A stretch of DNA of 64,000 bases from Rubrivivax gelatinosus (GTDB lineage Bacteria > Pseudomonadota > Gammaproteobacteria > Burkholderiales > Burkholderiaceae_C), in assembly GCF_016583785.1 (NCBI RefSeq), contig NZ_NRRU01000008.1, forward strand, positions 1-64,000, read 5' to 3'. Position 1 is the first letter of the stretch. Every line of letters starts with the position of its first letter. Under the pieces are notes generated by a model, which was not told the origin of the DNA, did not search any database, and saw nothing but the letters and a program-made list of their open reading frames with translations. Shown here piece by piece: positions 7,174 to 64,000 of the stretch. Made by a program: the position numbers and the translations under genes.

Positions 7174-7326
7174 CGGGTGGCGGCGGGAGTCTAGGGCCGG
7201 CGCAGGCTGCGGGCCTTGTCGACGGGCGGGTGCCGTGCGGGCAGTGTCGGTCCTCGGTGGCTCAGGGTATGAGCCCGGCGCGAGCGGCGCCGCGAGAACT
7301 AGTGCCAGAGTTTTCTTCAGTTCGGT

Positions 7327-7353
7327 TCAAGTCCGCTGATCGGGCGCCGAAAT
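7327..7353 (+). promoter_or_regulatory. Sigma-28 (FliA) type promoter for the Aer-like receptor
   Basis: TCAAGTCC (7327-7334), an 11-base spacer, then GCCGAAAT (7346-7353). This is close to the flagellar sigma-28 consensus (TAAAGTTT, 11 bases, GCCGATAA; TCAAG is a common -35 form in pseudomonads and relatives). It lies 50 bp before the receptor start, which fits a late flagellar/chemotaxis gene. Confidence 0.6.
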
Positions 7354-59619: not shown

Positions 59620-59633
59620 TTGTGCCAGATCAA
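59620..59633 (+). promoter_or_regulatory. FNR/Anr-type box upstream of the redox operon
   Basis: TTGTG-N4-ATCAA: eight of ten matches to TTGAT-N4-ATCAA, 78 bp upstream of the reductase start. It suggests induction at low oxygen. Confidence 0.5.
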
Positions 59634-59711: not shown

Positions 59712-60932
59712 ATGACTGCTCTGCAACTCTTCGGATGGATCGTCGCTGCCGCGCTGCTTCAGGTCGGCGCTGCGATCGTGCTCGTCTGGTGGCGCAAGCG
59801 TGCAGCGGCTGCCGGGTTGCCTGCGCTCGCCGTCGGGACGTCGGCGCTGCCGCCGGATGCGGCCTGGGCCGGCTGGCGCGAGTTCCGCGTCACGCGCCGG
59901 GCCTACGAAGACGGCGCGCAAACCCAGTGCTCGTTCTATCTGGAGCCGCTTGAAGGCGGGCCGCTGCCGCCCTACCTTCCTGGGCGCTTCCTGACCTTCG
60001 CGGTGGACCTGCCGGGCGCCGACGGGCCACGCACGCTGACGCGCTGCTACTCCTTGTCGGACGCGCCCGATGCCCGGGCTTACCGGGTGACGATCAAGCG
60101 TGTGCCGCCTCCGCCGGGGCGGCCCGAGTTGCCGCCGGGTCAGGTGTCAGGCCACTTCCACGAGCGCGTGCAGGTCGGCGACGTGCTCAGGTTGCGGGCT
60201 CCGTCCGGGCACTTCGTGCTCGACGCGGAGGAGTCGCTGCCGGTGGTGCTGATCGCCGGCGGCATCGGCATCACGCCGATGCTGGCGATGCTGCGCTGCA
60301 GTCTGGCCGAGGCGCCGCAGCGGCCTGTGCACCTGTTCTACGGCGTGCGCAACGGCGCCGAACTCGCTTTCGGGGCCGACCTGGCGGCCCTGGCCCTGGC
60401 CCATCCGGCGTTTGCGCTGCACCGTGTCTTCAGCCAGCCGGCAGGTGGCGACGAGGCCGGGCGCGACTACGAACACACCGGCTTCGTCGGCGTCGAACTG
60501 CTCAAGCGCGCTTTGCCGCACGGGCGCCACCGGTTCTTCATCTGCGGGCCGCCGCCGATGATGCAGGCCCTGGTGCCCGCGCTCGGCGTCTGGGGCGTGC
60601 CGCCCGAGGATGTGCGCTACGAGGCCTTCGGCCCGGCCTCGATGGCGGCACCGGTCCAGGTGCCGGCGGCGCCGCTGGCGATCGAGGTGAGTTTCCGCCG
60701 TTCGGGCCGGACGCTGGTCTGGGACGGGCGCGACGCCACGCTGCTGGACTTCGCCGAGCGCAACGGCGTCAAGGTCGAGTCGGGTTGCCGCTCGGGCGGT
60801 TGCGGCGCCTGCGAGACGCGGGTGGCCAGCGGCAGCGTGCAGTACGCCCACCAGCCCGACCACGACGTCGCGCCGGGGCACTGCCTGCTGTGCGTGGGCA
60901 AGCCGACGTCGGCGCTGGTGCTGGAGGCCTGA
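59712..60932 (+). CDS. Membrane-anchored flavin/2Fe-2S NAD(P)H oxidoreductase
   Basis: 406 residues. An N-terminal membrane helix (about 6-24) places the rest in the cytoplasm. Next come an FAD barrel (FLTFAVDLPG, RCYSLSD), an NAD domain (IAGGIGITPMLAML; FICGPPPMMQ) and a plant-type 2Fe-2S domain (CRSGGCGAC, later CLLC). This is the layout of NADH:ferredoxin-type reductases such as Hcr or phenol hydroxylase reductase. It probably passes electrons from NAD(P)H to the cytochrome b encoded next. ATG 59712 begins at the helix. Confidence 0.88.
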   Translation: MTALQLFGWIVAAALLQVGAAIVLVWWRKRAAAAGLPALAVGTSALPPDAAWAGWREFRVTRRAYEDGAQTQCSFYLEPLEGGPLPPYLPGRFLTFAVDLPGADGPRTLTRCYSLSDAPDARAYRVTIKRVPPPPGRPELPPGQVSGHFHERVQVGDVLRLRAPSGHFVLDAEESLPVVLIAGGIGITPMLAMLRCSLAEAPQRPVHLFYGVRNGAELAFGADLAALALAHPAFALHRVFSQPAGGDEAGRDYEHTGFVGVELLKRALPHGRHRFFICGPPPMMQALVPALGVWGVPPEDVRYEAFGPASMAAPVQVPAAPLAIEVSFRRSGRTLVWDGRDATLLDFAERNGVKVESGCRSGGCGACETRVASGSVQYAHQPDHDVAPGHCLLCVGKPTSALVLEA

Positions 60933-60933
60933 G

Positions 60934-61512
60934 ATGCGCGCCCGCCTGCTGCAACGGGAAGTCCTGCCCCTGATCGCCGGGCTGACGGGGCTGGCGCTGC
61001 TCGCGCTGGCCATCGACGCCTTGCTGCACGCGCTCGACGCGGTCTGGGTCGGGCGCTACCTCGGCATTCCGGGCACGCTGATGATCATCGCGTCGACGGT
61101 CTACTCGCTGCGCAAGCGCAAGGTCCTCACCCGCGGCAACCCGGCGCAGCTGCTGCGTTTTCACGAGGTCGTGGCCTGGACGGGCTCGCTGCTGGTGCTG
61201 GTGCATGCCGGCGTGCACTTCCATGCCGTGCTCGGCTGGCTGGCCGTCATCGCGATGCTGATCAACGTCGGCAGCGGGCTCACCGGCAAGCTGCTGATCG
61301 AGCGCTCGCGCCGGCGCCTGGAAGACGCGCGGCAGCGCATGCAGGAGCGCGGCCTGTCGGCCGCCGAGCAGGACGAGCGGCTGTACTGGGACAGCTTCAC
61401 CTTCGACATCGTGCGCCAGTGGCGCGTGGTGCACTTCCCGATCACGCTCGCGTTCACGGTGCTCGCGATCGCGCACATCGTCGCCGTCTTCCTGTTCTGG
61501 GAGTGGGTATGA
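60934..61512 (+). CDS. Membrane b-type cytochrome-like protein
   Basis: 192 residues, about five membrane helices (LPLIAGLTGLALLALAIDAL; VVAWTGSLLVLVHAGVHFHA; LAVIAMLINVG; ITLAFTVLAIAHIVAVFLF). His residues placed in helices (FHEVV; VHAGVHFH; HFPIT; IAHIV) can bind two haems b, as in cytochrome b561 or ferric reductase-like proteins. The start is one base after the reductase stop and the stop overlaps the next ATG. It would carry electrons across the inner membrane. Confidence 0.82.
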   Translation: MRARLLQREVLPLIAGLTGLALLALAIDALLHALDAVWVGRYLGIPGTLMIIASTVYSLRKRKVLTRGNPAQLLRFHEVVAWTGSLLVLVHAGVHFHAVLGWLAVIAMLINVGSGLTGKLLIERSRRRLEDARQRMQERGLSAAEQDERLYWDSFTFDIVRQWRVVHFPITLAFTVLAIAHIVAVFLFWEWV

Positions 61513-62369
61513 AACACCCGCTCGCCCTGGCCATCATCGCGGTCAATCTCGTCGTGCTGATCGTGCTCGTGTTCGCCCGGCCGCAGCTGATGGTGAGCCC
61601 GGGCCCGCTGTCCAAGGGGCATGCCGAACTCGCCGGCGACTGTTTCGCCTGCCATGCGCCATGGCGCGGTACCGCGGCGGCCCGCTGCAGCAGCTGCCAC
61701 ACCCCGGCCGACGTCGGCCTGCGCACCACCAAGGGGGTGACGATCGTCGCCGCGGCGCCCCGCATCGCCTTTCACCAGCAGCTCGCGCAGCAGGACTGCG
61801 CCGGCTGTCACAGCGACCATCTCGGCCCGCGCCAGACGCTGCGCGACCGCAAGGGTTTCGCCCACGAGATGCTGCTGCCGGCGGTGCAGCAGCAGTGCGG
61901 CGGCTGCCATGCGCAGCCGCAGACCCGCATCCACGAGAACCTGAAGGAAGGCTGCGCGCAGTGCCATGGCACGCGCAGCTGGAAGGTCGGCGCCTTCGAC
62001 CACGCGCTGCTGGGCGCGAGCGCCGAGGCCCGCTGCCAGAGCTGCCACGCGCCGCCCCAGGACCGCCTGCATGCACGTCTGGACGGCCGCTGCGCCACCT
62101 GCCACGGCACGCAGGCCTGGACGCCCGCCACCTTCGACCATGACCGCCACTTCGTGCTCGACCGCGACCACAACGCCGAATGCCGCACCTGCCACGTCGG
62201 CAACGACTACAGCCGCTACACCTGCTACGGCTGCCATGAACACAGCCCCGCCAGCATCCGCTCCGAACACGCCGAGGAGGGGATCCGCAACTTCGACGAC
62301 TGCGTCGAATGCCACCGCAGCGCCGACGACGAAGGGCACGGCGGCGGCTCCCGCCGCGGGCGCGACTGA
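61509..62369 (+). CDS. Decahaem c-type cytochrome, membrane-anchored
   Basis: 286 residues with ten CxxCH haem sites: CFACH, CSSCH, CAGCH, CGGCH, CAQCH, CQSCH, CATCH, CRTCH, CYGCH, CVECH. An uncleaved-looking N-terminal helix (ALAIIAVNLVVLIVLVF) exports and anchors it on the periplasmic face. Extra His residues (FDHALL; FDHDRHFV) could be distal ligands. The ATG lies inside the stop of the cytochrome b gene. It is probably the electron exit of the module, or a wire to outer partners. Confidence 0.93.
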   Translation: MKHPLALAIIAVNLVVLIVLVFARPQLMVSPGPLSKGHAELAGDCFACHAPWRGTAAARCSSCHTPADVGLRTTKGVTIVAAAPRIAFHQQLAQQDCAGCHSDHLGPRQTLRDRKGFAHEMLLPAVQQQCGGCHAQPQTRIHENLKEGCAQCHGTRSWKVGAFDHALLGASAEARCQSCHAPPQDRLHARLDGRCATCHGTQAWTPATFDHDRHFVLDRDHNAECRTCHVGNDYSRYTCYGCHEHSPASIRSEHAEEGIRNFDDCVECHRSADDEGHGGGSRRGRD

Positions 62370-62621: not shown

Positions 62622-64000
62622 ATGACCTGCGATAACAAGACGCGGCGCGCCGCTGCATGGCTGGCTGCGCTGGGGGTGGCGACGCTCGCGGCCTGCGGCG
62701 GCGGCGAGAACGGCCTGGATTCGAGCACCACGGTGACCGTCGGCACGCCGGCCAGCATCGCCGTCGAGTCCGCCGCGAGCTACGACGACAACCGTTACGG
62801 CCTGATCAGCGCCAAGACGCTGCGCGGCTGGATCGACAACTGGTCGGCGAACAAACCCGCCGGCATCAGCGGCAAGCTCGTCGTGCTGCAGGTGGCGGCC
62901 GGCCCGAGCGGGCGCCAGTACATCAAGGGCGACGACAGCAATGTCTTCGTCTACCTCGAAGGCGGCTGGACCGAGGACCGCTCCAACGGCGTCATCAAGA
63001 CCAGCACGATGGTGCTGACCGGCGCCAAGGTCGACGACCTGCTGGCGCGCTACGCGATCGACCCGCGCAAGGACCTCGTCGTCTGCGCCCAGGGCAGCGG
63101 CAATGCGTCGAACGCGATGACCCAGGGCCGCTGCTGGTACACGCTGCGCTACTGGGGCGTCGACGCGCGCCATGTCGCCGTGCTCAACGGCGGCAACCAG
63201 GCGCTGGGTGTCGACGACGGCTCGACCTGGACCAGCGAGCACTTCACCAGCGCCGAAGTCAGCCCGCGCCTGAACAAACGTGTCGCCAGCGTGCAGGACC
63301 TGGGCGTCGACAACACCGTGCTGCAGGCCACGCTGGAGGACGTGATCAACGTGCTGCCGCTGGCCGACCACAACGTGCTCGACGACGGCGTCTTCATCTG
63401 GGACGCACGCAGCCTGGCGCAGTACAGCGCCGGCCTGCGCGGCGCCTCCGTCAACGACATCCCGGCCAACGACGCCAGCGCGCTGGCGGCGAGCTTCCAG
63501 AACAACGGTTCGCGCCAGGGCCACCCGCGCGGCGCGCTGCAACTGGGCTACGACCAGCTGATCGACTCGGCCACCGGCAAGTACAAGAGCAAGGCCGACC
63601 TGGCCGCGCTGCTGGCCGGCGGCACGACGCCCTCGGGCCAGGGCTTCACCGACGGCCAGCTCGCGCTGCTGGGCAACGGCAAGGCCTACCAGAAGGGCGA
63701 CGTCGTCTACACCTACTGCGAGACGGCGATGCGGGCGATGATCACCGCGATCGCGTCCTCGGTCGTGCTGGGGCTGCCGACGCGCGTCTACGACGGCTCG
63801 ATGATCGAGTGGAACTCGCTCACGCGCACCCAGGACCGCAGCGGCAACTGGCTGATCCCGGCCGACTCGCGCTGGCGCACCGACGTGCTGTCCTGGTATC
63901 GGCTGAACCCGACGCCGGCCAACGTCGCGCCGCGCACCGACGCGAGCATCGTGCCGACCATCGTCGACGCCTACGCCGCCAATGCCGGCGCGGCGATCGC
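62622..64000 (+). CDS. Rhodanese-like lipoprotein (ExtH-like), C-terminus beyond the window
   Basis: 459 codons present, no stop before the edge. A signal peptide with lipobox LAACGGG (Cys25) makes it a lipoprotein. Two rhodanese-like domains follow: the first with VVCAQGSGNASNAM and VAVLNGGNQAL, the second with DARSLAQYSAG and an active-site-like Cys366 (YCETAMRA, then YDGSMIEW). Such two-domain rhodanese lipoproteins occur as ExtH in selenite/tellurite reduction operons of Geobacter. The 252-bp gap before it holds no gene. Confidence 0.72.
   Translation, partial: MTCDNKTRRAAAWLAALGVATLAACGGGENGLDSSTTVTVGTPASIAVESAASYDDNRYGLISAKTLRGWIDNWSANKPAGISGKLVVLQVAAGPSGRQYIKGDDSNVFVYLEGGWTEDRSNGVIKTSTMVLTGAKVDDLLARYAIDPRKDLVVCAQGSGNASNAMTQGRCWYTLRYWGVDARHVAVLNGGNQALGVDDGSTWTSEHFTSAEVSPRLNKRVASVQDLGVDNTVLQATLEDVINVLPLADHNVLDDGVFIWDARSLAQYSAGLRGASVNDIPANDASALAASFQNNGSRQGHPRGALQLGYDQLIDSATGKYKSKADLAALLAGGTTPSGQGFTDGQLALLGNGKAYQKGDVVYTYCETAMRAMITAIASSVVLGLPTRVYDGSMIEWNSLTRTQDRSGNWLIPADSRWRTDVLSWYRLNPTPANVAPRTDASIVPTIVDAYAANAGAAI

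Follow-up and report, generated by a model that had tools for sequence, protein, structure and literature searches.

A recurrent three-gene unit of Rubrivivax gelatinosus predicted to link NAD(P)H oxidation to a periplasmic multihaem cytochrome

We analysed a 64,000-nt stretch of Rubrivivax gelatinosus DNA (assembly GCF_016583785.1, contig NZ_NRRU01000008.1, positions 1-64,000, forward strand; the window), which carries three tightly packed genes, here called A, B and C, on the plus strand. Gene A (59712..60932, 406 amino acids) encodes a membrane-anchored NAD(P)H reductase, based on domain matches to FAD, NAD and C-terminal [2Fe-2S] domains. Gene B (60934..61512, 192 amino acids) encodes a membrane protein with two H-x13-H motifs, and gene C (61509..62369, 286 amino acids) a probably periplasmic cytochrome c with an N-terminal anchor and ten CXXCH motifs. 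A single base (60933) lies between A and B, and B and C overlap in an ATGA (61509-61512). Re-reading of the three frames confirmed the gene starts, ends, one-base gap and overlap given in an initial annotation of this DNA.

The product of gene A resembles FAD/NAD/2Fe-2S reductases of the PaaE, HCR and BenC-like kind, with the same set of FAD_binding_6, NAD_binding_1 and Fer2 domains. NAD_binding_1 (66.6 bits) and Fer2 (45.1 bits) were matched above their Pfam cut-offs, and FAD_binding_6 scored 21.0 bits, marginally below its cut-off of 21.1. No NCBIfam model reached its cut-off, and a PDB sequence search returned flavohaemoglobin and oxygenase reductases. A hydrophobic stretch near the N terminus (residues 7-25) is the predicted anchor.

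Cytochrome C combines a hydrophobic N-terminal stretch with its ten CXXCH motifs and scores above the Pfam cut-offs of class III-type families (Cytochrom_c3_2, 52.3 bits; Cytochrom_CIII, 51.0 bits; Cytochrome_C7, 46.2 bits); its PDB matches were weak and multihaem only. With ten motifs in about 30 kDa, it is like the decahaem cytochromes of the DmsE/MtrA type, but the match to TIGR03508 is weak (24.4 bits against a cut-off of 192.2), and most complete C orthologues, unlike that type, have eight CXXCH motifs. Ten haems, the number given in the initial annotation, are less common than eight: among 75 complete C frames, 56 have eight motifs, 17 have ten and 2 have seven (five further frames, cut by contig ends, lie outside this count). 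In the alignment, the ten-motif form corresponds to the eight-motif form plus a two-motif insertion.

Membrane protein B matched no Pfam or NCBIfam family above cut-off, and its interpretation draws on its histidines. Five of these (H77, H91, H95, H167 and H181) are invariant across 86 aligned B sequences, and four make up the two H-x13-H motifs, H77/H91 and H167/H181. This is the spacing of both haem pairs in cytochrome b and in ferric reductase/NOX proteins. Both motifs stand at set positions in 85 of the 86 sequences, compared with 3/4300 shuffled sequences, and the remaining sequence (L101) also has both, its numbering shifted by a different start. From this pattern we infer that B is a di-haem cytochrome b. 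The basic residues of B are clustered at the N terminus, at 60-75 and at 119-164, which would place those parts in the cytoplasm. AlphaFold models were built from 13 and 86 sequences (pLDDT 71.6 and 72.4), and the modelling suggests five long helices. Combined with the basic clusters, this would have helices 3 and 5 cross the membrane outwards, so that H77 and H167 would hold an inner haem and H91 and H181 an outer one.

Comparison with known families gave no clear relative of B. Foldseek with both models gave nothing below E 0.001. The best VIA Z scores, 9.9 against the helical, talin-like protein TLNRD1 and 8.0 against a designed bundle that binds porphyrin, are at the generic helix-bundle level, as are the rows for SpNOX, NOX5 and cytochrome b561; this comparison covers the families in the fold-search lists, and B may have relatives in families outside them. 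A PDB sequence search returned no credible match, a plasmid search returned none, and the ferric reductase family PF01794 (Ferric_reduct) gave no match at E 1 and an hhalign probability of 1.15%. Profile comparison showed no relation to DUF4405, ferric reductase or b561 sets or to control transporters (the DUF4405 set had 7 sequences, and the set of type III relatives described below had 3).

DUF4405 (PF14358) nevertheless deserves comparison. The accessible part of PMC11334425 describes DUF4405 cytochromes as small membrane proteins that have four histidines at their centre and are proposed to conduct electrons through the cytoplasmic membrane. B is like them in its four conserved central histidines (H77, H91, H167 and H181) and in its sub-threshold scores: 14.2 bits against a cut-off of 26.7, with 21.5 bits (L122) the best among four B proteins scanned. 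It is unlike them in that the profile-profile relation has a probability of only 5%, obtained with a DUF4405 set of 7 sequences. The partners differ as well, being flavinylated proteins for DUF4405, as far as that part of the source describes them, and a multihaem cytochrome c with a dedicated reductase for B.

The unit is common rather than peculiar to one genome and recurs across many proteobacteria; a survey for the three-gene order, as proposed in the initial annotation, found A-B-C repeatedly with tight spacing in other genomes. Among 200 genomes from the family of the window genome, 13 genomes of 13 genera, the window genome included, have a close B relative (E < 1e-60), and nine more have weak matches only. 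Each of the other 12 keeps the A-B-C order, its genes spaced by -10 to +5 bases (contig ends truncate C in L033 and A in L043). In a phylum sample of 349 genomes, B was present at E 1.3e-60 or better in 23, with weak matches in five more. A scan of one genome per species returned 410 loci with B relatives from other species; counts for named loci rest on the best 80 of these, with neighbours identified by tblastn at E 1e-5, and five of the 12 family records also appear among the named loci. C adjoins B in 80/80 of the named loci, and A is present in 75/80. Their carriers are mostly titled as Beta- or Alphaproteobacteria, some only as "Pseudomonadota" or "bacterium", and one as a delta proteobacterium. 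Carriers whose titles have no MAG label include Ideonella sp. A 288, Rubrivivax sp. A210, Piscinibacter caeni MQ-18 and Curvibacter delicatus NBRC 14919. This recurrence of the A-B-C order is not chance, and the predicted architecture of the module is well supported. Three metagenome bins titled Bordetella parapertussis or Klebsiella pneumoniae (L070, L101 and L123) also carry the unit; these labels look wrong, and we do not use the names.

The upstream regions of A point to oxygen control. We scanned the 250 bases before A for the FNR/Anr consensus TTGAT-N4-ATCAA and found boxes with at least 9/10 bases in 24 of 60 upstream regions with valid A start codons, 17 of the 24 being located 78-118 bases upstream of A. 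Nineteen permuted half-sites, used as a control, gave a mean of 0.05 and a maximum of 1. Boxes precede A in 26/71 regions, a count that includes some misplaced A starts, compared with 12/647 regions upstream of other genes at these loci. The low-oxygen role suggested in the initial annotation thus gains support from sites upstream of orthologous A genes. The window has the site TTGTGCCAGATCAA (59620..59633, plus strand), which matches 8/10 consensus bases and lies 92 bases before the A start codon, a position within the distance range of the better sites in orthologous regions. FNR-like sites with up to 2 mismatches number 15 in the window against 2.6 expected, so a single site proves nothing.

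Distant relatives of B retain much of this arrangement. Of the 20 weak-B loci examined, 19 have a B-like H-x13-H protein adjoining a multihaem c frame; L024 was rejected as a B relative, as the locus encodes a transporter. Sixteen of the 19, which we call type II, show no reductase in the stretch covered, and their cytochrome frames have at least 12 CXXCH motifs in 14/16 (the exceptions are L022, with 9 and another 5 in a second frame, and L025, with 6). The other three (type III: L186, L188 and L189) have an A-like FAD/NAD/[2Fe-2S] reductase before the B-like protein and a multihaem c frame behind it with 6 or 7 CXXCH motifs (4 in the called gene of L189); the L189 B-like protein has both H-x13-H motifs. 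Profile comparison links the three B types, with the A-B-C form as type I, to each other at 97.7-98.3% probability, and one type III relative matches PF01794 below threshold (16.3 bits against a cut-off of 28). The pairing of a multihaem cytochrome c with a membrane protein of di-haem type, often accompanied by a reductase, thus recurs at low sequence identity. In type II loci L017-L023, L026-L031, L185 and L187, longer B-like proteins with two H-x13-H motifs stand beside large multihaem cytochromes as an unnamed two-gene unit. At L025:853-3205, a B-like protein is followed by a 497-residue six-CXXCH protein whose N terminus, judged by eye, resembles an FHA domain; this may be a further type.

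Outer-membrane conduits of the Mtr/Pio type are over-represented in genomes that carry the module. In the 200 family genomes, MtrB/PioB is present in 9/13 module genomes and 10/187 others (Fisher p 5e-8, uncorrected for descent), at a cut-off of E < 1e-50 that was picked after viewing the table and is reached in 19/200 genomes. Looser cut-offs raised that number to 21 (default) and 27/200 (E 0.001), with the module overlap constant at 9/13, and the association holds minus the window genome (8/12 against 10/187, p 3e-7). The narG control gave 8/13 module genomes against 77/187 (p 0.13). When type II genomes are removed, the type I link to MtrB persists (6/9 against 8/180, p 4e-6). Overlaps for MtrB, DHC-type dihaem cytochromes and narG were counted by eye from result tables. 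The window genome itself has a row of such genes on another contig (L246, G000:C50:26000-39487): a ten-CXXCH protein that sequence reading suggests is MtrA-like, next to it an MtrB/PioB porin of some 937 residues, and two cytochromes with two CXXCH motifs each. Among the genes called in these 13.5 kb we saw no inner-membrane donor.

The neighbours of the module in the named loci vary, in data that cover 5 kb before A in 55 loci and, beyond C, at least 2 kb in 59 and at least 5 kb in 46. Constant company with a known terminal reductase, which would have spoken against the initial annotation, did not emerge: no terminal reductase is a constant neighbour in the family loci or in the named loci (the best 80 of 410, with many short stretches among the 80). 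The recurring families are P-type cation ATPases (21 loci), two genes of a two-component system (16 each), cytochrome b561 (10), CDF transporters (10), DHC-type dihaem cytochromes (8) and PepSY-like proteins (7), along with generic TctC-like receptors (8), ABC ATPases (7) and short-chain dehydrogenases (6). Examples of the DHC, b561 and P-type ATPase families and of an SHP-like DUF1924 protein were checked, and the other identities come from sequence reading.

Downstream of C in the window genome lies an Ext-type outer-membrane cluster, mostly past the window end and hence invisible to the initial annotation. Its first gene (62622..64000, plus strand, ending at contig position 64112) encodes an ExtH-like rhodanese lipoprotein with an NCBIfam score of 106.2 bits, under the cut-off of 200. 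It starts 252 bases after C on the same strand, and the interval has no terminator-like site on that strand. Past the window are genes for a TusA-like protein, a small secreted-looking protein and a tri-haem cytochrome, then an ExtI porin (L002:13218-14404, contig 65217-66403), read in two frames. Both pieces match NF040900, the N-terminal one with 236.4 bits against an NCBIfam cut-off of 150. Next come a YedE-type transporter, a penta-haem cytochrome that weakly resembles ExtKL, and a protein of DUF442 type. Scans of A, B, C and nine downstream proteins showed neither a Rieske protein nor one like ExtO or ExtP.

A known counterpart is in Geobacter, where extHIJKL is one of several outer-membrane conduit clusters, according to the accessible part of PMC6148476. 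The accessible part of PMC5877670 describes an extHIJKLMNOPQS cluster with its own Rieske/cytochrome b module and reports that extI deletion reduces selenite and tellurite reduction. As far as these sources describe it, the Geobacter cluster is like the genes after C in its ExtH-like rhodanese, ExtI porin, multihaem cytochromes and nearby inner-membrane electron module. It has, however, a Rieske protein and a cytochrome b (ExtO and ExtP), and here A-B-C stands in front instead.

We lean, though not strongly, towards reading A-B-C as a low-oxygen, quinone-independent, charge-moving gate from NAD(P)H to the periplasm that feeds periplasmic and outer-membrane cytochromes. Held in the membrane by its N-terminal helix, A would oxidise NAD(P)H on the cytoplasmic side and pass single electrons through FAD and then the [2Fe-2S] cluster to B. 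The two b haems of B would be stacked across the membrane, with H77 and H167 on the cytoplasmic side and H91 and H181 towards the periplasm. C, anchored to the outer face with its eight to ten haems, would collect electrons from B and deliver them to periplasmic cytochromes and to outer-membrane conduits, of the Mtr/Pio type in many species; in the window genome, the Ext-type cluster next door may be an added acceptor. An FNR/Anr regulator would turn the gate on at low oxygen. Because electrons would exit while protons stay, the gate should use up membrane potential, which would make it a redox outlet or a supplier of reductant and not an energy-conserving respiratory complex. NOX enzymes likewise spend membrane potential. 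The order of carriers in the initial annotation, from NAD(P)H through FAD, 2Fe-2S and haem b to haem c, fits the domains, the likely topology and the conserved histidines; its haem b step is backed by no family model and rests on those histidines.

Several observations weigh against this gate. For B, a hydropathy scan at 1.5 flags only three of the five helices that the modelling suggests; the models are middling (pLDDT about 72), and the fold searches gave no clear match. A went undetected in 5/80 named loci, in one of which (L101) a 45-residue frame resembling the A anchor alone remains, and the FNR site of the window itself is weak, at 8/10 bases. The co-occurrence statistics are uncorrected for descent and genome size, and MtrB was not seen in 4/13 module genomes. 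DHC cytochromes are likewise enriched, in 11/13 module genomes against 55/187 (p 1e-4), and haem-rich genomes share many such genes. Type II genomes, which are without A, are also linked to MtrB, more weakly (5/11 against 14/189, p 0.0015; the count excludes genome G186, which has a type II-like locus).

The Ext-type acceptor is affected in particular. The ExtI frame is broken near L002:14000 by an apparent frameshift, which may reflect an assembly error or decay of the gene. A-B-C lies beside Ext in this genome alone, with 0/80 named loci (59 of them covering at least 2 kb beyond C) and 0/12 family loci (three of the latter on contigs of 6 kb or less) showing the same pairing, and one weak YedE-like match was the sole Ext-type signal in the named loci. 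ExtI itself exceeds its cut-off in 2/200 family genomes, one of which is without the module, and five ExtI loci of the same taxonomic order (L133 and L158-L161) have no adjoining A-B-C; Ext can therefore do without the module. These five clusters have YedE, ExtH, a multihaem ExtKL-like cytochrome and ExtI, with TusA-like genes in four of the five and, after ExtI in L158-L161, one kinase-like and one response-regulator-like gene as a pair. L133, from the same genus, has a NapG/NapH-like pair about 1.3 kb before the first TusA-like gene; this does not prove an exchange of modules, since the scan for such pairs covered L133 only. As no Ext gene adjoins the module in named or family loci, we ruled out the module as a general part of an Ext operon.

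An outward gate could also act as a safety valve or as a donor for periplasmic repair or detoxification. C would then reduce soluble partners, for which DHC/SHP-type cytochromes, metalloid oxyanions and oxidised proteins are candidates, and outer-membrane conduits would not be the main acceptors. MsrPQ is a precedent, in which a flavin reductase in the cytosol and haem b in the membrane serve a repair enzyme in the periplasm. The recurring neighbours in the 80 loci, which are of non-conduit kinds (ATPase, two-component, b561, CDF, DHC and PepSY-like), speak for such a role, as do the upstream FNR boxes and the DHC enrichment. We nonetheless regard it as unlikely, as it leaves both the MtrB/PioB enrichment and the adjoining Ext cluster unexplained, and no repair enzyme or terminal reductase is constantly nearby in the 80 loci.

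The gate might instead run inward, with periplasmic Fe(II), sulfur species or a conduit feeding C, then B, then A; the NAD(P)H or reduced carriers made by A would serve biosynthesis or nitrogen fixation. Mtr/Pio-type conduits serve electron uptake as well, which favours this direction, and two family module loci lie near nif genes by sequence reading (nifE/N-like in L032 and nifHDK-like in L042). Flow in this direction would, however, have to overcome the membrane potential and climb in energy to NAD(P)H, no subunit that could couple it is visible, and nif is missing from the neighbour clusters listed for the 80 loci; we consider it improbable. We likewise see little prospect that B and C form a self-standing unit reduced by other donors, such as quinol or soluble reductases, with A optional: the loci where A went undetected, L101 with its anchor-like frame, and the 16 type II loci with B-like and multihaem c genes would suit it, but A is found in 75/80 loci, and the three type III loci also carry an A-like reductase before B.

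We found no description of an A-B-C module in the open-access PMC literature, our sole literature source; the initial annotation knew of no named three-protein system with this order, and none appeared in the Pfam and NCBIfam scans or in that literature. MsrQ (YedZ) with its flavin reductase, NOX and ferric reductases all have cytosolic NAD(P)H and flavin, a histidine-paired haem b and an acceptor outside. A-B-C would share this plan, given the haem predicted in B, and differs in its separate [2Fe-2S] reductase, its multihaem c acceptor and its use of more than one polypeptide. Thus the principle is already known from MsrQ and NOX, and nearly so from DUF4405, and the new elements are the combination of a [2Fe-2S] reductase with an eight- to ten-haem cytochrome and the B family, both unnamed in Pfam, NCBIfam and the open-access PMC literature. 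The module is therefore a variation on an existing principle. We see a fair chance that B represents a new family of cytochromes, and we flag its relatives, which no Pfam or NCBIfam model matches above cut-off, as a probable cytochrome family.

For Gram-negative bacteria, the quinone pool is the usual starting point in models of extracellular electron transfer. If the gate operates as proposed, it would provide a second entry point, from NAD(P)H directly to multihaem cytochromes, and could account for MtrA/MtrB-like clusters without an adjoining inner-membrane donor. For bacteria that export electrons to their environment, the module may supply a missing step at the inner membrane. More tentatively, and with slightly less than even confidence, we propose that B represents a new superfamily of transmembrane di-haem cytochromes of at least three types, and that A-B-C is an NAD(P)H-driven, quinone-independent front end for extracellular electron transfer that Mtr/Pio and Ext conduits could share.

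Some features near the module and elsewhere in the window stand apart from these questions. A conserved single-helix membrane protein of 53-54 residues occurs near the module in L034, L037, L039 and six of the loci L044-L123 (L034 is the same record as L054, and L037 the same as L111), and narG lies near the module of genome G199 (L034). The window has no Rfam match at the gathering threshold. ARAGORN called a tRNA-Ala (agc) of 91 bases at window positions 7251-7341, amid long open frames, which is possibly spurious.

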